From contig CAMVPV010000007.1 in NCBI GenBank assembly GCA_947169455.1, positions 1 to 12,198 on the forward strand: 12,198 nucleotides of DNA, in the 5' to 3' direction. The stretch is from an uncultured Clostridia bacterium. GTDB taxonomy: Bacteria; Bacillota_A; Clostridia; Oscillospirales; Ruminococcaceae. Position 1 is the stretch's first letter; every line of letters starts with the position of its first letter. Made by a program: the position numbers and the translations under genes. This document shows, piece after piece, positions 1 to 12,070 of this stretch. Below the pieces are notes generated by a model, which saw only the letters and a list, made by a program, of their open reading frames with translations, searched no databases and had not been told where the DNA came from.

Positions 1-1
1 C

Positions 2-487
2 GAACTTCTGCTCGACAGCCGCGTGAAGGTGCACACCTTCATCGCAGACGGATATACTATCCTGCCGATGCCGTCGTTCCGCCCGGGACTGCTGCGCAGC
101 ATCTATATCAAGGGCTATTCCGCAGTGATCTGTTCCATGCTCACAAAGCATCAGGCACTGCTCGCAAAGCTGCTCGGCAGAACGGAAAGCTCGGTGAGAG
201 AGTCTCTATATACAGATGTGAGCAGACAGTCGATAATAAACAGCGTTGAAAGCGAGATAGGCTACCGCTATAAATTTGAAAGCTTCAACCTTACCGACTC
301 GTTCATATTCCACGGCTCCGCAGAAATGTCAGCGGCGCGGAAGGTACATAAGCTGAAAGCGAAAGGGATACGCTTCCGCCACAAGATATTCCGTGATACG
401 GGCCATGCGGAGCTTATCCACGGTGACCCGCGCTATCTGCTTAAATACATCGGCAAGGCGTACTCCCTCGGAAACAATAAAGAATGA
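2..487 (+). CDS. Alpha/beta hydrolase, C-terminal part (5' end outside window)
   Basis: The reading frame is open from the left edge of the window, so this is the last 161 codons of a longer gene; the in-frame GTG at 23 is internal. The visible part has the C-terminal half of an alpha/beta hydrolase: a strand followed by an ADG step near the left edge, a helical cap-like middle, then a strand ending in FHGSAE (usual position of the acidic residue) and a TGHAELIHG segment that supplies the likely catalytic His. The nucleophile Ser would lie upstream of the window. The protein resembles the minus-strand hydrolase at 11102-11831 in the same positions (ADGYTI against MDGCYV; FHGSAE against WCGSKE; TGHAE against GYGHGE), so the two are probably paralogs. 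The substrate is unknown. The DUF4015-type gene follows after 71 bases and could be co-transcribed. Confidence 0.7.
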   Translation, partial: ELLLDSRVKVHTFIADGYTILPMPSFRPGLLRSIYIKGYSAVICSMLTKHQALLAKLLGRTESSVRESLYTDVSRQSIINSVESEIGYRYKFESFNLTDSFIFHGSAEMSAARKVHKLKAKGIRFRHKIFRDTGHAELIHGDPRYLLKYIGKAYSLGNNKE

Positions 488-3702: not shown

Positions 3703-4212
3703 ATGAATGAAAAAAACCTGATACCGTTCAACGGAACGGCTGCTCAGGAAGATGAACTCAAAAAGGTCATCGCAGAACACCGCGACCAGAAGGGCGGGCT
3801 CATGCCTATCCTTCAGAAGGCACAGGGCATTTACGGCTATCTGCCCATTGAGGTGCAGACAATGATCGCAGAGGGACTCGGCATATCTCTCTCTGAGGTT
3901 TACGGAGTCGCTACGTTCTACTCACAGTTCTCCCTTACTCCGAAGGGCGAACACCGTATCAGCGTCTGTCTCGGAACAGCCTGCTATGTAAAGGGCTCGG
4001 ACAAGATACTTGAAGCTGTTGAAAACCGTCTCGGCATAAAGTCGGGCGAATGTACTCCCGACGGAAAATTCTCAATAGATTCCTGCCGCTGCGTAGGCGC
4101 CTGCGGACTTGCTCCCGTAATGCTCGTGGATGAGGACGTTTACGGCAAGGTAACTCCCGACCAGGTAGATGGTATCATAGATTCCTACCTTGCGGAAAAA
4201 GGAGGTAATTAA
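3703..4212 (+). CDS. hydC: [FeFe]-hydrogenase NuoE-like subunit, HydC
   Basis: This 169-residue protein is the NuoE-like (24 kDa-type) thioredoxin-fold subunit of a NAD-dependent electron-bifurcating hydrogenase. ATG 3703 lies 8 bases after AGGAGG (3689-3694). The N-terminal helical part (to about residue 80) contains GGLMPILQKAQGIYGYLP and YGVATFYSQF, both typical of the family. The [2Fe-2S] ligands are Cys89 and Cys94 (CLGTAC) and Cys130 and Cys134 (CVGAC), followed by GLAPVM. Length and cysteine spacing are normal. It passes electrons within the complex to the NuoF-like subunit, in the cytoplasm. The ribosome binding site of hydB overlaps its last codons (GGAGGT at 4201-4206), so translation is probably coupled. 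Naming follows the Thermotoga maritima HydABC convention. Confidence 0.93.
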   Translation: MNEKNLIPFNGTAAQEDELKKVIAEHRDQKGGLMPILQKAQGIYGYLPIEVQTMIAEGLGISLSEVYGVATFYSQFSLTPKGEHRISVCLGTACYVKGSDKILEAVENRLGIKSGECTPDGKFSIDSCRCVGACGLAPVMLVDEDVYGKVTPDQVDGIIDSYLAEKGGN

Positions 4213-4215
4213 GAG

Positions 4216-6108
4216 ATGACTATTGAACAGCTGAACAAGATAAAGGCTGAACACGAAGACCTTATAAAAGTCAGAAAGATCGTTGCCGAGGAAGGTGCCA
4301 AGCTCGCTGAAAAGACCGGCTACAGAAAGCAGGTACTCGTATGCGGAAGTACAGGCTGTACCTCCTCCGGAAGCAAGAAAGTCCTCGAAGCTCTCGAAAG
4401 CGAACTCAAAAAGCAGGGTCTTGAAGATGAGATCCTCGTAGTAAGGACAGGCTGCTTCGGTCTCTGCGCACTCGGTCCTATCATGATCGTTTATCCCGAG
4501 GGCACTTTCTATGCACAGGCTACTCCCGAGGGCGTAGTCCGCATCGTTGATGAGCACCTCAAGAACGGCAACGTCGTAAAGGATCTCCTCTACAAGGAAA
4601 CCGTACATACCGACGGTTCCATAATCTCTCTCTCCGAGACTGACTTCTACAAGAAGCAGGTCAGAATAGCACTCAGGAACTGCGGCGTCATCGAACCCGA
4701 AAATATCGCCGAATATATCGCAACAGACGGCTATCAGGCTCTCTATAAAGCCCTTACCTCCATGTCCCGCGATGACGTTATCAAGGAACTCATCGATTCC
4801 GGACTGCGCGGAAGAGGCGGCGGCGGATTCCCCACCGGCAAGAAGTGGATGTTCGCCAAGGCTTCCGAGGGCGATGTCAAGTATGTATGCTGCAACGCCG
4901 ACGAGGGCGACCCGGGCGCATTCATGGACAGATCCATACTTGAGGGCGACCCCCACGCTATCATCGAGGCAATGACGATCGCCGGCTATACCATCGGCGC
5001 TCAGCAGGGCTACGTATATGTCCGCGCTGAATATCCCGTTGCCGTTGACCGCCTCACTATCGCACTCAATCAGGCAAGAGAGTACGGTCTGCTCGGAAAG
5101 AACATCTTCGGCACCGACTTCAGCTTCGATATAGATATCCGCCTCGGCGCAGGCGCATTCGTATGCGGTGAGGAAACCGCCCTCATGACCTCTATCGAGG
5201 GTCACCGCGGCGAGCCCAGACCCCGTCCTCCGTTCCCGGCTGTCAAGGGTCTTTTCGGCAAGCCCACAGTACTCAACAACGTTGAGACATACTCCAATAT
5301 CCCGCAGATCATCCGCAAAGGCGCTGCATGGTACGCTTCAATGGGTACCGAGACCTCCAAGGGCACAAAGGTATTCGCTCTCGGCGGAAAGATCACAAAT
5401 GTCGGACTCGTTGAGATCCCCATGGGCACAACGCTCCGCGAGATCATCGAAGAGATCGGCGGCGGCATCCCCAACGGCAAGAAGTTCAAGGCTGCACAGA
5501 CAGGCGGACCTTCCGGCGGATGCATCCCCGCTGAGCATATAGATACTCCTATCGATTACGAGAGCCTCTCCGCACTCGGCTCCATGATGGGCTCCGGCGG
5601 ACTTATCGTAATGGACGAGGATACCTGTATGGTCGATATCGCTAAGTTCTACCTCAACTTCACCGTTGATGAGAGCTGCGGCAAATGTACTCCCTGCCGC
5701 GTAGGTACAAAGAGACTCCTCCAGTACCTCGAGAAGATAACTTCCGGCAAGGGCGAGCCCGATGACCTCGAAAAGATCGAAGAGCTCGCAAATCACATGA
5801 AGTCCTCCTCTCTCTGCGCACTCGGTCAGTCTGCTCCCAACCCGATACTCTCCACCATCAAGGCGTTCAAGGACGAGTACATCGAGCACATTGAGAACAA
5901 GCACTGCCCCGCAGGCGTCTGCAAGGATCTGCTCCAGTACGAGATCATCGCCGACAAGTGCAAGGGATGCACGCTCTGCGCACGCAACTGCCCTGTCAAG
6001 GCTATCTCCGGTACTGTAAAGCAGCCTCATGTCATCGACCAGTCGAAGTGCGTCAAGTGCGGACTCTGCCAGCAGAACTGCAAGTTCGGCGCAATAATCA
6101 AGAAGTAA
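4216..6108 (+). CDS. hydB: [FeFe]-hydrogenase NuoF-like flavin subunit, HydB
   Basis: This 630-residue protein is the flavin and NAD(H)-binding subunit. Domains in order: an N-terminal thioredoxin-like [2Fe-2S] domain (ligands Cys43, Cys48, Cys80, Cys84); the NuoF core with the FMN-binding loop GLRGRGGGGFPTGKKW (197-212) and CNADEGDPGAFMDR (226-239); an SLBB-type segment; the [4Fe-4S] site ESCGKCTPCRVG (Cys488, Cys491, Cys494) with Cys534; and a C-terminal 2x[4Fe-4S] ferredoxin domain (Cys582, 585, 588, 592 and Cys612, 615, 618, 622). The extra N-terminal and C-terminal cluster domains separate HydB-type subunits from NuoF of complex I. FMN would be where electrons from NADH and ferredoxin are combined or split. 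ATG 4216 follows GGAGGT at 9 bases, and hydC ends only 3 bases upstream. Codon use is strongly biased (CTC, ATC, AAG), as in highly expressed genes. Confidence 0.95.
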   Translation: MTIEQLNKIKAEHEDLIKVRKIVAEEGAKLAEKTGYRKQVLVCGSTGCTSSGSKKVLEALESELKKQGLEDEILVVRTGCFGLCALGPIMIVYPEGTFYAQATPEGVVRIVDEHLKNGNVVKDLLYKETVHTDGSIISLSETDFYKKQVRIALRNCGVIEPENIAEYIATDGYQALYKALTSMSRDDVIKELIDSGLRGRGGGGFPTGKKWMFAKASEGDVKYVCCNADEGDPGAFMDRSILEGDPHAIIEAMTIAGYTIGAQQGYVYVRAEYPVAVDRLTIALNQAREYGLLGKNIFGTDFSFDIDIRLGAGAFVCGEETALMTSIEGHRGEPRPRPPFPAVKGLFGKPTVLNNVETYSNIPQIIRKGAAWYASMGTETSKGTKVFALGGKITNVGLVEIPMGTTLREIIEEIGGGIPNGKKFKAAQTGGPSGGCIPAEHIDTPIDYESLSALGSMMGSGGLIVMDEDTCMVDIAKFYLNFTVDESCGKCTPCRVGTKRLLQYLEKITSGKGEPDDLEKIEELANHMKSSSLCALGQSAPNPILSTIKAFKDEYIEHIENKHCPAGVCKDLLQYEIIADKCKGCTLCARNCPVKAISGTVKQPHVIDQSKCVKCGLCQQNCKFGAIIKK

Positions 6109-6123
6109 GGGAGGAACCAGCTA

Positions 6124-7866
6124 ATGGCAACAGAAATGATAAATCTCAAGGTGAATGGGATACCTGTGTCTGTTCCGGCAGGCTCTACCGTTATCGAGGC
6201 AGCCAAGGCAGCCAATGTGGAGATCCCCTCACTTTGTTACCTCAAGGATATCAACTGCATCGGTGCCTGCCGCGTCTGTGTAGTTGAGATAAAGGGTGCA
6301 AGAGGTCTCGTGGCTTCCTGCACATATCCCGTAAACGAAGGCATGGAGGTATTCACAAATACCCCCAAGGTACGCGCTTCCCGCAAGACAACTCTCGAAC
6401 TCATCCTTTCCAGCCACAAGAAGAAGTGCCTCTCCTGCGACCGCAGCACAAACTGCGAACTCCAGAAGCTCGCTGTTGAGTACGGCGTTGATGAAGACCG
6501 CTTCCCCAGCGACGACAGAGGATATGAGATAGACGACAGCTCCGCTTACATAGTACGCGACAACAACAAGTGCATCCAGTGTATGCGCTGCGTTGCTGCC
6601 TGCTCCAAGGTACAGAGCGTAAGCTGCATCGGCGCTATCAGACGCGGATACAATGTTCACGTCGGCTGCGCATTCGATAAGAAGCTCGGCGATTCGCCCT
6701 GCGTAGGCTGCGGTCAGTGCATCGTTGCCTGCCCCGTAGGCGCTCTCACCGAAAAGAGCCAGACCAAGGAAGTATGGAACGCTATCGCAGACCCCGACAA
6801 GAAGGTCGTATTCTTTACTGCTCCTTCTGTACGTGCTACACTCGGCGAAGCATTCGGTATGCCCGTAGGCACCAATGTTGAGGGCAAGATGGTAGCTGCT
6901 ATCAGAAGACTCGGCCCCGATAAGGTATTCAACATGGACGTTACCGCCGACCTCACCATCATGGAAGAGGCTAACGAGCTTATCGACCGCATAAAGAACG
7001 GCAAGACTCTCCCGATGTTCACATCCTGCTGCCCCGGCTGGATCAAGTTCTGTGAGCATTATTATCCCGACTTCCTGCCGCATCTCTCCTCCTGCAAATC
7101 CCCGCAGCAGATGTTCGGCGCAGTTCTCAAGAGCTACTACTGCGAGAAGAACGGCATAGATCCCAAGAACCTCTTCGTTGTCAGCGTTATCCCCTGCACA
7201 TCCAAGAAGTTCGAGGTAACACGTCCCGAGCAGAGATCCCAGGATTTCGACGATGTCGATGTAGCACTCACAACACGCGAGCTCGCTAAGATGATCAAGG
7301 AAGCAGGTATCGACTTCACTGCCCTTGCAGATGAAAAGTTCGATGATCCCTTCGAGACAGCATCGGGCGGCGGCGCTATCTTCGGCGCAACAGGCGGCGT
7401 TATGGAGGCGGCTCTCAGAACTGCTGCCAATATCCTCGACGGTTCCTCCCAGGCGCTTGAATTCAAGGAAGTCCGCGGCACACAGGGCGTCAAGGAAGCC
7501 ACCTACACAGTCGGCGGCGTTGATGTAAAGGTAGCTGTTGTTTCCGGTCTTGCAAACGCAAGACAGATCATTGAAGCTATCAACAAGGGCGAGAAGGATT
7601 ACCAGTTCGTAGAGGTAATGGCTTGTCCCGGCGGATGCATCAACGGCGGCGGTCAGCCTCATCAGCCCGATTCCGTCCGCAACAATGTCGATCTCAAGTC
7701 TATCAGGGCAAAGGCTCTGTACGACCTCGACAGCTCTATGGAACTCAGAAAGTCTCATGAGAGCCCCGTTATGAAGCTCCTCTATGATGATTACTTCGAG
7801 GCTCCGGGCAAGGAGAAGTCGCACAAGCTGCTCCACACCACCTACGTTAAGAGAAGCTCTTTCTGA
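6124..7866 (+). CDS. hydA: [FeFe]-hydrogenase catalytic subunit, HydA
   Basis: This 580-residue protein makes or consumes H2 at the H-cluster. It has the Clostridium pasteurianum CpI-like layout: a [2Fe-2S] domain (Cys38, Cys49, Cys52, Cys66); a NuoG-type His/Cys [4Fe-4S] site (His98, Cys102, Cys105, Cys111); a 2x[4Fe-4S] ferredoxin domain (Cys150, 153, 156, 160 and Cys193, 196, 199, 203); the catalytic domain with L1 TSCCPGW (300-306), L2 as IPCTSKK (356-362) and L3 EVMACPGGCINGGGQP (497-512); and the small-subunit domain to the C-terminus. Ligands to the H-cluster are Cys303, Cys358, Cys501 and Cys505 by homology; Cys302 is the proton-relay Cys. L2 usually reads MPCxxK, so Ile356 is unusual. 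The extra C-terminal [2Fe-2S] domain of T. maritima HydA is absent. ATG 6124 follows GGGAGG (6109-6114). The complex should couple NADH and reduced ferredoxin to H2. Maturases HydE, HydF and HydG are not in the window. Confidence 0.96.
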   Translation: MATEMINLKVNGIPVSVPAGSTVIEAAKAANVEIPSLCYLKDINCIGACRVCVVEIKGARGLVASCTYPVNEGMEVFTNTPKVRASRKTTLELILSSHKKKCLSCDRSTNCELQKLAVEYGVDEDRFPSDDRGYEIDDSSAYIVRDNNKCIQCMRCVAACSKVQSVSCIGAIRRGYNVHVGCAFDKKLGDSPCVGCGQCIVACPVGALTEKSQTKEVWNAIADPDKKVVFFTAPSVRATLGEAFGMPVGTNVEGKMVAAIRRLGPDKVFNMDVTADLTIMEEANELIDRIKNGKTLPMFTSCCPGWIKFCEHYYPDFLPHLSSCKSPQQMFGAVLKSYYCEKNGIDPKNLFVVSVIPCTSKKFEVTRPEQRSQDFDDVDVALTTRELAKMIKEAGIDFTALADEKFDDPFETASGGGAIFGATGGVMEAALRTAANILDGSSQALEFKEVRGTQGVKEATYTVGGVDVKVAVVSGLANARQIIEAINKGEKDYQFVEVMACPGGCINGGGQPHQPDSVRNNVDLKSIRAKALYDLDSSMELRKSHESPVMKLLYDDYFEAPGKEKSHKLLHTTYVKRSSF

Positions 7867-8023: not shown

Positions 8024-8269
8024 ATGGCACTTATATCGTTCGTATTCATTATATTATTCATATTATTGGCAGCTGTACTGCTGGGTATGCTCACAGGCGG
8101 GGTGATACTCATAGTTGTGGGCGGCATAAAGCTGCGTGCCCACAAACGGAACGGCGAACCGCTCGTGCCCGCGGTGATATCGCTGGTGCTCGGAATACTG
8201 ATAGCGCTGGTGCCGCTCACCGTCGCAGGATTGATAATAGCCGGTATTATCGAGACGGCTTTCTTCTGA
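8024..8269 (+). CDS. Small two-helix membrane protein, tandem copy 1
   Basis: The 81-residue product starts at ATG 8024 behind AGGTGAT (8014-8020). It has two hydrophobic helices (about residues 5-33 and 47-75) joined by a basic loop, KLRAHKRNGEPLVP. By the positive-inside rule the loop is cytoplasmic and both ends face outward. It is the first of three tandem relatives; it shares with them GMLxGGVILxxVGGxKLRxHKRNGxPLxPAVISxVLGxxIxLVPL. It is the most diverged at its N-terminus (MALISFVF against MAFMGM). I do not know a named family or a function. It could act as a scaffold, oligomerise with the longer copy 3, or be a duplicated remnant under little selection. Confidence 0.7.
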   Translation: MALISFVFIILFILLAAVLLGMLTGGVILIVVGGIKLRAHKRNGEPLVPAVISLVLGILIALVPLTVAGLIIAGIIETAFF

Positions 8270-8307
8270 ACCGGAAGGGGGAAACATCTATGGCATTTAT
8301 GGGTATG
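8266..8307 (+). repeat. 42-bp direct repeat, copy 1 (stop, RBS and start of a tandem gene)
   Basis: Positions 8266-8307 are identical to 8496-8537, at a spacing of 230 bases. The repeat holds the stop codon of the gene before, the purine-rich Shine-Dalgarno CCGGAAGGGGGAAA and the first six codons (MAFMGM) of the gene after. It marks a duplication junction. Confidence 0.9.
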
Positions 8308-8499
8308 ATATTCATCATTCTGTTCGGTATGCTCGCCGGCGGAGTGATACTCATCATCGTGGGCGGCGTTAAGCTGCGTAATCACAAGCGGAACGGCGAC
8401 CCTCTCGCACCCGCTGTGATATCGTTTGTGCTCGGAACGCTGATAACGCTGGTGCCGCTCACCTTTGTTGCACTGGTTATCAAGTCGGCTTTGCCCTGA
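8290..8499 (+). CDS. Small two-helix membrane protein, tandem copy 2
   Basis: The 69-residue product starts at ATG 8290 with GGAAGGGGG upstream, 20 bases after the stop of copy 1. It has the same two-helix design with a basic loop, KLRNHKRNGDPLAP. Its first helix is 7 residues shorter than that of copy 3, while the rest matches copy 3 closely (PLAPAVISFVLG and ITLVPL are the same). The chain ends just where copy 3 continues into its outer domain, so this looks like the N-terminal module of copy 3 alone. The function is unknown. Because the start region and leader are the same as in copy 3, the two should be translated with similar efficiency. Confidence 0.7.
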   Translation: MAFMGMIFIILFGMLAGGVILIIVGGVKLRNHKRNGDPLAPAVISFVLGTLITLVPLTFVALVIKSALP

Positions 8500-8537
8500 A
8501 CCGGAAGGGGGAAACATCTATGGCATTTATGGGTATG
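8496..8537 (+). repeat. 42-bp direct repeat, copy 2
   Basis: This is the second exact copy of 8266-8307. It spans the end of tandem copy 2 and the start of copy 3. Perfect identity over coding and non-coding bases points to a recent duplication or gene conversion. Confidence 0.9.
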
Positions 8538-9596
8538 TTCATCATATTTATTGTGATAGCAGGCATCATACTGTTCGGTATGCTGGTCGGCGGTGTGATA
8601 CTTCTGGTCGTGGGCGGCGTCAAGCTGCGTGCTCACAAACGGAACGGCGAGCCCCTCGCACCCGCTGTGATATCCTTTGTACTTGGCGCGATGATAACGC
8701 TGGTGCCGCTCTCCGTCGCAGGACTGCTGATATTCGGCGGCGTTTCAAATTTCATAAAAATGGAAGCGGAGAGAAGTACTTACAGCAGTTTTATCGACAA
8801 GTGGAAAAACCCGGACGAAAAATTCATCACAGACACAGGCGCCATGAAAGACTGCTTCATTCCCCTTCTGCAAGCCGCTGACACCGGCGATCCGGAAGAA
8901 CTGAAAAAGCTCTTCGCCGAAAGCGAACAGAGCGTTATCCTCGACAACGAGATAAAGGTATTTCTGAACGAATACCCCAAGGGGCTGTCACTGTCGGAAA
9001 ACACGCATACCTACTCCGGCGGCAGCGGCAGGAAGAACGGTTCTGAACATTTCACCGCATACGCAGATGCCGAGCTGAACGGAGAATACTATTACATAAA
9101 CATTTACGCCTGTTTCCGCGATGAAGAACACCCTGAGAATGTCGGAATAAAACGCTTCACCGTCCGCTCGCAGACGGCAGAGGCGATACACCGCGATAAG
9201 TCATGGCACAGCAACGGCAGCTATGATACGGGATACAAGCACATTTTCTGCAAAACCATCACCCCCGAGGGGATAGATTCCTGCCGCGCCGAAACAGAGC
9301 CCTATATCTATCACGATACAGGACGGGTACTCACATTTGAGGAGGTGCAGGAAGCCGTGCGCACGATACACAGCTTCGATTCCTTCACGGAAAAATACGG
9401 TGAGCCGAATGTTTCATACGGAGACGGCTGGAAAAACTACTATGACCTCGAACCGGACGGCGGCAAACGGCGCTATCTTTGTATCTATCATCACGATGAC
9501 AAACCGCTCTCCCCTGATGATTTTATGGTCTGCGGCACCGAACGCGACCTGTATATATTTTTTGATGAGAACGGGAATATCAAGGAAAAGAAATAA
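8520..9596 (+). CDS. Two-helix membrane protein with large extracytoplasmic domain, tandem copy 3
   Basis: This 358-residue protein begins with the same module as copies 1 and 2 (helices at about 5-34 and 47-74, basic loop KLRAHKRNGEPLAP) and then carries about 280 more residues. The topology puts that part outside the cell. Residues about 105-216 (MKDCFIPLLQAADTGDPEELKKLFAES, then an acidic helix, then YYYINIYACFRDEEHPENVGIKRFTV) resemble DUF5104-type domains found on clostridial lipoproteins; this is recalled by pattern only. Residues about 270-355 (LTFEEVQEAVRTIHSFDSFTEKYGEPNVSY and following strands) resemble the small helix-plus-sheet fold of SmpA/BLIP-type domains. There is no lipobox and no enzyme motif. 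A binding or sensing role at the surface is an inference. The VanZ-like gene starts 2 bases after its stop, so the two are probably made together. Confidence 0.75.
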   Translation: MAFMGMFIIFIVIAGIILFGMLVGGVILLVVGGVKLRAHKRNGEPLAPAVISFVLGAMITLVPLSVAGLLIFGGVSNFIKMEAERSTYSSFIDKWKNPDEKFITDTGAMKDCFIPLLQAADTGDPEELKKLFAESEQSVILDNEIKVFLNEYPKGLSLSENTHTYSGGSGRKNGSEHFTAYADAELNGEYYYINIYACFRDEEHPENVGIKRFTVRSQTAEAIHRDKSWHSNGSYDTGYKHIFCKTITPEGIDSCRAETEPYIYHDTGRVLTFEEVQEAVRTIHSFDSFTEKYGEPNVSYGDGWKNYYDLEPDGGKRRYLCIYHHDDKPLSPDDFMVCGTERDLYIFFDENGNIKEKK

Positions 9597-11101: not shown

Positions 11102-11831
11102 TTACAGGGAACTTTGTTTTTCAACCCGTATGGTATCCTGTATCTTTTTGCAGCATTCTTCTGTATGCTTCATCAGAAACTCCCCGTGTCCGTAACCCTC
11201 CATGATCTCCTCATGACAGTTTTGCAGATACCGCTTCAGCTCCTTATGTGATTTCAGAGCATAGGGTTCCTTGCTGCCGCACCATAGAAATACCCTTGTC
11301 CTGCTGCGGGATATTTCGGGACGGGTGCGGTAGGTATAGTTCTCAAGGAAATTACGCTTCAGCGATTCGTCCGAACACCCCATATAAAGCGAGTCCATCA
11401 TTCCGAGGTCCTCTTCCTTAAGCCCCATTAGCTTCATCATGAGCAGGATAAGCGGCGGAAATTTGCCCGTGTTCTTGAATTTCAGAAACATTTTATAAGT
11501 GATCCTGCCCGCTGTTTTCCCCTGATGGGCAACATAGCAGCCGTCCATGATAGCGGTATCTATGACGATATTGTTGCGGGTGAGCAGTTCGGTAAGCATA
11601 AGCCCGCCCTGTGAAGCGCCGTAAGCACCGCATACCCTGCCGGAATGATCAGCCTGGATATACTCCTCTATCTGCCGTGCCTGATCGGCAAATGATGTAA
11701 AATCGCGGCTGCCGTCGAAAGCTGTTTTCCAGAGAACCCAGCAGTTCATATTCACTGTGCCAGTCCTGCATCATCCCATGCAGGAGCAGCAGTGCGGGCG
11801 CATCCTTATTTCCGTATTCATTGAATAACAT
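11102..11831 (-). pseudogene. Alpha/beta hydrolase, broken by a frameshifting deletion
   Basis: Two adjacent minus-strand frames together encode one alpha/beta hydrolase. The first (from ATG 11831, behind GGAGAAAGG) reads MLFNEYGNKDAPALLLLHGMMQDWHSEYELLGSLENSF, with the oxyanion-hole LHGM. The second resumes with DGSRDFTSFADQARQIEEY and continues to 11102 with the nucleophile motif GASQGG, an ADG-like MDGCYV, WCGSKE and the catalytic-His region GYGHGE. The join is near 11711-11722. Homologs I recall have about a dozen residues of the type RLIIPxxDGxYDG at this point, so a single deletion of roughly 35 to 40 bases with loss of frame explains the data; short repeats of TTCGAC would favour such a deletion. 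An assembly or sequencing error is the alternative. The C-terminal half resembles the hydrolase at 2-487. An upstream in-frame ATG at 11912 lies inside the riboswitch platform and is not the start. Confidence 0.7.
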
Positions 11832-11848
11832 ACGATATCCTTTCTCCG

Positions 11849-11883
11849 AAAACAAGATCGGGCACAGCCGAAAGCCATGCCCG
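11849..11883 (-). terminator. Intrinsic terminator of the riboswitch expression platform
   Basis: On the minus strand CGGGCA (11883-11878) pairs with TGCCCG (11864-11859) around a 13-base loop, followed by ATCTTGTTTT. It lies between the riboswitch and the hydrolase start, just ahead of the ribosome binding site, as expected for transcriptional control. The T-run is interrupted, so read-through may be appreciable. Confidence 0.6.
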
Positions 11884-11943
11884 TAAAAGTCATATATACA
11901 GACTTCATGCATAGCCTGCGGCGGATATTGATGCCGTAAAAGT

Positions 11944-12038
11944 TACACATGAGTCTCGCAAATTAAAACACGCCGGACCATTCGGTCGGTATGTCGGCGT
12001 TGTTCCTCCGGAAAGAGCCTGCTACTCCCTCATATACA
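11944..12038 (-). ncRNA. yybP-ykoY (Mn2+) riboswitch aptamer
   Basis: The leader transcribed from the minus strand contains AUGAGGGAGUAGC (from 12033) and GCGAGACUCAU (to 11949), the two conserved joining-loop strands of the yybP-ykoY motif. They are closed by a P1 stem of AUGAG with CUCAU, extended by several A-U and G-U pairs. Between them is the conserved GACAUAC, which starts a hairpin: ACAUACC with GGCGUGU, then GACC with GGUC around GAAU. GGAGUAGC, GACAUAC and GCnAGAC in this order also occur in the Lactococcus lactis and Escherichia coli Mn2+ riboswitches. The first transcribed base should be close to the start of P1. The family usually switches on Mn2+ exporters (P-type ATPases, MntP, TerC) when Mn2+ is high. 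Here the next gene is an alpha/beta hydrolase. The identification is from memory of the consensus, without a covariance model. Confidence 0.82.
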
Positions 12039-12041
12039 TGA

Positions 12042-12070
12042 ATTATAATATATTTTTTTCGATTTGTCAA
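12042..12070 (-). promoter_or_regulatory. Consensus sigma-A promoter of the riboswitch-hydrolase transcript
   Basis: On the minus strand TTGACA (12070-12065) and TATAAT (12047-12042), both perfect, are separated by 17 bases. The start site falls near 12035, at the 5' end of the riboswitch P1 stem. This is the best promoter in the window and suggests strong initiation with control left to the leader. Confidence 0.88.

Follow-up and report, generated by a model that had tools for sequence, protein, structure and literature searches.

A short-form yybP-ykoY-type leader before a broken alpha/beta hydrolase gene in an uncultured Clostridia bacterium: a probable Mn2+ riboswitch with a rare target

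The locus

The DNA analysed here, called the window, is the stretch of 12,198 nucleotides at positions 1 to 12,198 of contig CAMVPV010000007.1 (assembly GCA_947169455.1), from an uncultured Clostridia bacterium of the family Ruminococcaceae. Near its end, an RNA leader precedes an alpha/beta hydrolase gene and a phosphatase gene on the minus strand. The features are given below in the direction of transcription, with scores from the Rfam model RF00080 and from R1, a covariance model built from leaders of relatives.

12042..12070, minus: predicted sigma-70-type promoter, TTGACA-17-TATAAT, 12/12 consensus matches
11939..12040, minus: short (P4-less) yybP-ykoY aptamer, 80 bits with R1 and 15.3 bits with RF00080
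12029..12033, minus: 5' strand of helix P1, AUGAG, pairing with 11953-11949
12023..12028, minus: 5' side of loop L1, GGAGUA
11970..12000, minus: P3.1/L3/P3.2, ACGCCG-ACAUACC-GACC-GAAU-GGUC-CGGCGU
11994-11988, minus: loop L3, with ACAUAC kept
11962..11967, minus: 6-nt linker UUUAAU, at the place of P4 in four-helix members
11949..11959, minus: 3' side of L1 and 3' strand of P1, GCGAGACUCAU
11901..11955, minus: predicted anti-antiterminator, the P1 3' strand (from 11955) with AUGCAUGAAGUC, in the minimum free energy (MFE) fold of the free leader
11872..11917, minus: predicted antiterminator, AGGCUAUGC (11917-11909) with GCAUGGCUU (11880-11872), in the MFE fold with the aptamer pairs enforced
11859..11883, minus: intrinsic terminator hairpin of 11 bp, -17.3 kcal/mol, followed by AUCUUGUUUU
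11839..11847, minus: purine-rich ribosome binding site GGAGAAAGG, 7 nt before the ATG at 11831
11102..11831, minus: alpha/beta hydrolase gene with a broken frame, by comparison with locus L001
10222..11037, minus: Cof-type HAD-IIB phosphatase gene, 64 bp after the hydrolase, with no conserved link to the leader

The original prediction had placed a consensus promoter, a terminator and a ribosome binding site around a Mn2+ riboswitch, and all three are borne out on the minus strand, the terminator as a terminator-like hairpin with an imperfect U tract. The signature of GGGAGUAGC, ACAUAC and GCGAGAC is likewise present, with each part at its correct structural place. Upstream, at the end of the contig (12165-12198, minus), an inverted repeat rich in G and C precedes CTTCT; it may terminate a gene farther upstream and thus insulate the leader.

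The first gene after the leader had been called an alpha/beta hydrolase. That is indeed its family, judging from weak Pfam matches to Abhydrolase_1/6, which stay below the cut-off, and from a match to the putative hydrolase in PDB 4rpc (E 3.9e-15), but the gene is not intact here, which was overlooked. The reading frame opened by the ATG at 11831 runs for 60 aa, to 11649; the remainder lies in another frame (11755-11102), because, compared with L001, a net 32 nt are missing at about 11726-11721. Conservation across the family is good (26 rows in alignment A1). Its nearest other member in a large protein set, P0002 (257 aa), is 87% identical to the hydrolase of the window and 91% identical to the intact hydrolase of L001. 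Among the 231 codons compared between the window and L001, 50 differences are silent and 27 replacing, so that constraint on the hydrolase apparently lasted until recently, unless the break is an assembly error. Since the window's own hydrolase is broken, selection on its link with the leader may be gone in this strain. A further alpha/beta-hydrolase-like gene, without a Pfam match of its own, is represented by its 3' part at 1-487 (plus); its product shares 29% identity with that of the gene right after the leader in locus L016.

Detection of the leader

The leader is a real element of the yybP-ykoY type. R1 finds it at 12040-11939 (minus) with 80 bits and an E-value of 1.5e-21, and this is the single match over the 12,198 bases of the window, with none else up to E 10. 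The model was built from 14 of 15 pattern matches among relatives, with the window excluded; its seeds include the leaders of L001 (= L058, the nearest relative), L009 and L016. The pattern itself matched 13 of 38 genomes, and a reversed-pattern control matched none of the 38.

The original prediction had staked the riboswitch on a significant hit with RF00080. The window gives none (Rfam release 15: 15.3 bits, E 0.95, cut-off 45), nor do the leaders of L001, L009 and L016 reach the cut-off (20.3, 24.4 and 24.0 bits). RF00080 is a poor criterion here, however, because the Escherichia coli mntP leader, which has been reported as a Mn-sensing riboswitch (PMC9603457), also falls under the cut-off (41.6 bits), as do all matches in the 297 genomes sampled from the family of G001, the genome on which sampling was centred. 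We therefore rejected RF00080 as a test of this leader as too insensitive. In the 291 genomes sampled from the class of G001 it again found nothing above the cut-off. At E ≤ 1e-3, under stricter filters that lose weak matches, RF00080 matched 19/297 family and 21/291 class genomes, against 122/297 and 72/291 for R1.

A short form of the aptamer

Members of this class are described as having four helices (PMC9495176) that meet in a four-way junction, with the second A of ACA in L3 as the metal-binding adenosine (A48 in Xanthomonas oryzae; PMC6754395). The window shares with RF00080 the two sides of L1 (GGAGUA and RAGA), the metal-binding adenosine of L3 and the order of P1, P2 and P3, and its core (GGAGUA/GAGA and ACAUAC) lies at the expected places. 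All three helices are present, with P2 consisting of only 3 standard pairs (CUC/GAG). In contrast to the class, P4 is absent and a linker of 6 nt stands in its place, which the original prediction overlooked; the score lies far under the Rfam cut-off. The aptamer measures 85 nt from P1 to P1.

This shortened architecture recurs in relatives. The 6-nt linker replaces P4 in 77 of 78 aligned leaders and in 91 of 92 of the classified set, most commonly as UUUAAA, counts that come from a model trained on short forms and do not show long forms to be absent. The L1 sequence GGAGUA is identical in 106/106 aligned leaders, which include a few duplicates and 14 seeds chosen by a pattern requiring it. 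Compared with the common P3.1 pairing AAGUCA/UGGCUU, the ACGCCG/CGGCGU of the window has changed both sides of 2 of the 6 pairs and one side of 1. The E. coli mntP leader has the same L1 and L3 and scores 23.1 bits with R1, but differs in having a hairpin between P3 and GGCGAGACC and in controlling an exporter. Judged by sequence, the window leader would thus be a short form working like the yybP-ykoY class, rather than a typical member.

Covariation is observed in the leader alignments. In 76 distinct leaders, 97.4% of the pair cells are standard and 19 of 25 pairs have changed on both sides, compared with shuffled means of 85.5% and 10.6, and with at most 44.4% and 8 for slid structures; this alignment was fitted to the covariance model. 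In a MAFFT alignment (A4), which left out the window and L052, 97.7% of the cells are paired and 7/25 pairs double-changed, versus 94.2% and 2.5 after shuffling, with no excess of pair types in A4 (16 versus 15.4).

Could the leader be a chance resemblance, with no riboswitch at all? The RF00080 E-value of 0.95 and the unremarkable fold energy of the bare aptamer (z -1.03) point that way. Plain folding of the bare aptamer, whose MFE fold differs from the conserved structure, was rejected as an uninformative test. The whole leader, by contrast, is more stable than all of 200 shuffles (z -2.91), and together with the covariation and the E-value of R1, which we take as refuting, this makes a chance resemblance hardly conceivable. 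Hence, of the predicted Mn2+ riboswitch leader, the element itself stands, whereas its recognition by RF00080 does not.

Expression platform

The folding calculations suggest, on thermodynamic grounds, a transcriptional ON switch. The free leader folds with the anti-antiterminator and the terminator (-73.8 kcal/mol). When the aptamer pairs are enforced, the MFE shifts unforced to the antiterminator (-63.9 versus -62.4 kcal/mol with the terminator), a preference of only 1.5 kcal/mol. Relative to the free fold, enforcing the aptamer costs 9.9 kcal/mol for the whole leader and 4.1 for a transcript ending at the antiterminator. In this calculation, Mn2+ binding or co-transcriptional folding would have to pay the 9.9 kcal/mol between the states.

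A similar platform is found in many relatives. Of 75 leaders, 33 were dropped because their L1 3' motif was inexact or their sequence too short. Among the 42 usable ones, 35 had an anti-antiterminator duplex with z ≤ -2 against shuffles (window: z -3.6), and 37 had a terminator hairpin at least as stable as -8 kcal/mol. The duplex of L001 is unremarkable (z -1.3).

An ON switch acting by antitermination would be consistent with the yybP-ykoY riboswitch of Lactococcus lactis as described in PMC11087558. It differs from a statement in one review, which terms yybP-ykoY riboswitches OFF switches (PMC11477304). The platforms also differ in build: the window has a separate anti-antiterminator and antiterminator, whereas the description of the L. 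lactis riboswitch places the 3' strand of P1.1 within the terminator stem (PMC11087558).

We infer the following mechanism. In the absence of metal, P1 would yield its 3' strand to AUGCAUGAAGUC, a pairing that ties up the antiterminator; the terminator would form, and the mRNA would end ahead of the gene. Mn2+ held between L1 (GGAGUA/GAGA) and L3 (ACAUAC) would close P1, leaving AGGCUAUGC free to pair with the 5' arm of the terminator, upon which the polymerase would read into the hydrolase gene.

Genes behind the leaders

The first genes behind the leaders of relatives are mostly transporter genes, here assigned by tblastn to clusters, with some of the leaders being near copies. Among the best 60 of 144 family matches, these are mntP (43), P-type ATPase (9), CaCA (2) and ABC transporter (2) genes, one gene for an ATC_hydrolase-like protein, the hydrolase of G001, and two without a class call. 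The class sample (the best 30 of 80 matches minus 2 already in the family sample) gave 16 mntP, 7 P-ATPase, 4 ABC and 1 CaCA gene. Examples of the clusters match Pfam PF02659, E1-E2_ATPase, Na_Ca_ex, ABC_tran plus FtsX, and ATC_hydrolase. This agrees with the predicted control of Mn2+ export by most members (43 mntP and 9 P-ATPase genes among the 59 family leaders besides that of G001), a linkage that is found in the relatives and not at the window locus. Because the leader elsewhere mostly precedes transporters, as is known for RF00080, Mn2+ is by analogy the likely ligand of the short form. The L3 of the window, ACAUACC, is identical in 4 of 60 mntP leaders.

Two other kinds of gene recur behind the leader. 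An ABC transporter comes first in L135, L159, L176, L181, L182, L183 and L204; five of these seven leaders have an L3 with ACAUCC, and ABC_tran plus FtsX were matched in L135. ATC_hydrolase-like proteins are found at L009:2741-3364 (PF14196), L016:4369-4959, L072 and L112, the last standing first behind the leader in G012.

The hydrolase is an uncommon target. We found 47 hydrolase loci, mostly in Clostridia from ruminant guts, and used 45 (L046 and L047 lacked upstream sequence). A leader lies upstream on the same strand in five: L001, L009 and L016, found by the pattern and included in the R1 seeds, and L008 and L011, newly found with R1. Assuming roughly one leader per 2.4-Mb genome, about 0.03 such co-occurrences would be expected. 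The comparison of gene order in relatives, as proposed in the original prediction, gave the following: in L001 the leader stands directly before the intact hydrolase, as in the window, and four more genomes have it in differing orders. In L008 and L011, the leader is followed by a small membrane protein and the hydrolase; in L016 by another alpha/beta hydrolase, an ATC_hydrolase-like protein and the hydrolase; and in L009 by mntP, ATC_hydrolase, DUF1232, a hydrolase-like gene, one more gene and the hydrolase. No leader was found upstream in the other 40 of the 45 loci, some with less than 1.3 kb of upstream sequence. In 14 of the 45, a TetR gene stands directly upstream of this same family of hydrolases (A1), without a leader.

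A protein tree of 37 of the 47 loci, five members of the protein set and the window fragment (without L033, L036, L038, L040-L042 and L044-L047, which were partial or near duplicates) puts the leader-linked hydrolases in three places. The best tree needs 3 label changes, whereas its supported branches force only 1, with L009 on an open fork. A single origin of the link with later losses is thus possible from the tree. In the family sample, the hydrolase was found in 5/297 genomes (E ≤ 1e-20), with three strong matches, among which only that of G001 stands behind a leader; in G012 the hydrolase is on another contig than its two leaders, and R1 found no match in G027, which has a strong hydrolase match. 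The recurrent linkage supports the hydrolase as a genuine, if rare, target of a Mn2+-type leader.

Hence, the leader is probably a Mn2+ riboswitch of the yybP-ykoY class that switches transcription on, with a shortened aptamer of three helices that lacks P4, and the hydrolase was probably recruited to the Mn2+ regulon. The hydrolase, which is paired with TetR in many relatives, would have joined this regulon in the lineage of the window, possibly also in others, and in the contig of the window the switch would now drive a damaged gene, or else the break would be an assembly error. The predicted new regulon member is thereby upheld as regards the link, which recurs in L001, L008, L009, L011 and L016, while Mn2+ as the ligand, the ON direction and a possible advantage of the hydrolase when Mn2+ is high are what we infer. 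Serine hydrolases need no Mn2+, so that biochemistry offers no rationale for the link.

Our literature search found no paper on a hydrolase behind a yybP-ykoY leader or on a P4-less form, the candidate papers having been examined in part. The Mn2+ class was reportedly defined by Dambach 2015 and Price 2015. If our reading is correct, RNA-based Mn2+ sensing would be undercounted in these bacteria (as the match counts of R1 and RF00080 given above would indicate), and a family of enzymes outside transport would become a candidate part of the Mn2+ response, a direct clue to the role of the hydrolase. The aptamer of 85 nt, as a natural minimal form, would be suited to testing the need of a fourth helix for metal docking.

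Alternative explanations

An alternative explanation might be that the leader is a relict that once belonged to mntP: an operon of the L009 kind, with the hydrolase at its far end, would have lost its exporter, and the hydrolase would merely have come to lie behind the leader. The predominance of mntP as first gene (43 of the 59, from the best 60 of 144 family matches) would fit this, as would the broken hydrolase and the draft genome of G001, which holds only distant P-ATPases and no MntP match. Yet, the gene order varies among L001, L008/L011, L016 and L009, and the window and L001 keep the direct arrangement, with hydrolases that differ mostly silently. Moreover, G015 and G012 each carry a leader at mntP and another elsewhere, which precedes a hydrolase operon in G015 and an ATC_hydrolase-like gene in G012, so that in these genomes a second copy of the leader fits better than a simple deletion. 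In G008 and G010, which like G012 and G015 carry mntP elsewhere in the genome, R1 finds no leader at mntP. The original prediction's alternative of an exporter simply deleted here finds no support for this contig, given L001, which shares the arrangement, and these four genomes. An older loss of mntP from an L009-like operon in the lineage of the window is possible; as a whole, we consider the relict explanation unlikely. Less probable by far is the suggestion that the switch really serves the HAD phosphatase gene, which follows that of the hydrolase. HAD-IIB enzymes are Mg2+-dependent, and no terminator-like site is listed on the minus strand in the gap of 64 bp, so that the gene may be read through from the hydrolase. 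However, in L001 the HAD gene is not adjacent to the hydrolase, and no HAD gene comes first behind any of the 85 leaders, besides that of G001, for which the first gene was classified (57 of 59 in the family sample and 28 of 28 in the class sample). We rejected it as target on these two grounds, and regard it as very improbable.

It might also be that the short form has changed its ligand and senses another ion before the hydrolase. Support comes from the leaders of L008 and L011, with ACAUCA or ACAUCC in L3 and CAGA in L1, and from the variation of L3 with the first gene: L3 begins with ACAUAC in 43/60 mntP leaders versus 9/28 leaders before P-ATPase, CaCA, ABC transporter or small membrane protein genes (Fisher p 0.0009, for a comparison chosen after seeing the data and ignoring kinship). 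Against this, the window and L001 retain GGAGUA/GAGA and ACAUAC like most mntP leaders, and we regard a changed ligand before the hydrolase as quite improbable. A hydrolase recruited under a Mn2+ switch remains our preferred explanation.

Variation of the core and other features

The variant core (ACAUCA or ACAUCC in L3, CAGA on the 3' side of L1) is found at L008:1884-1988 (plus), L011:4280-4382 (plus) and L176:1501-1606 (minus), before a small membrane protein and the hydrolase in the first two and before an ABC transporter in the third. CAGA also occurs in L1 of three P-ATPase leaders. The L3 variants may mark different metal preferences, which is the boldest lead of the analysis. Tentatively, and more easily doubted than believed, Clostridia of animal guts might have a separate branch of P4-less Mn2+ riboswitches with a three-state platform of its own, which escapes the Rfam cut-off and controls more than exporters. 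The hydrolase would have been recruited more than once, in some genomes with an ATC_hydrolase-like or small membrane protein, and core variants would track the target and might mark aptamers for another divalent ion.

Elsewhere in the window, the three genes at 3703-7866 (plus) encode NuoE-type, Nuo51-type and [FeFe]-hydrogenase domains (Pfam), a cluster that presumably resembles a multimeric electron-bifurcating hydrogenase. Three consecutive hydrophobic proteins at 8024-8750 (plus) have closely similar starts, as if by tandem duplication, and the third extends into a longer domain.
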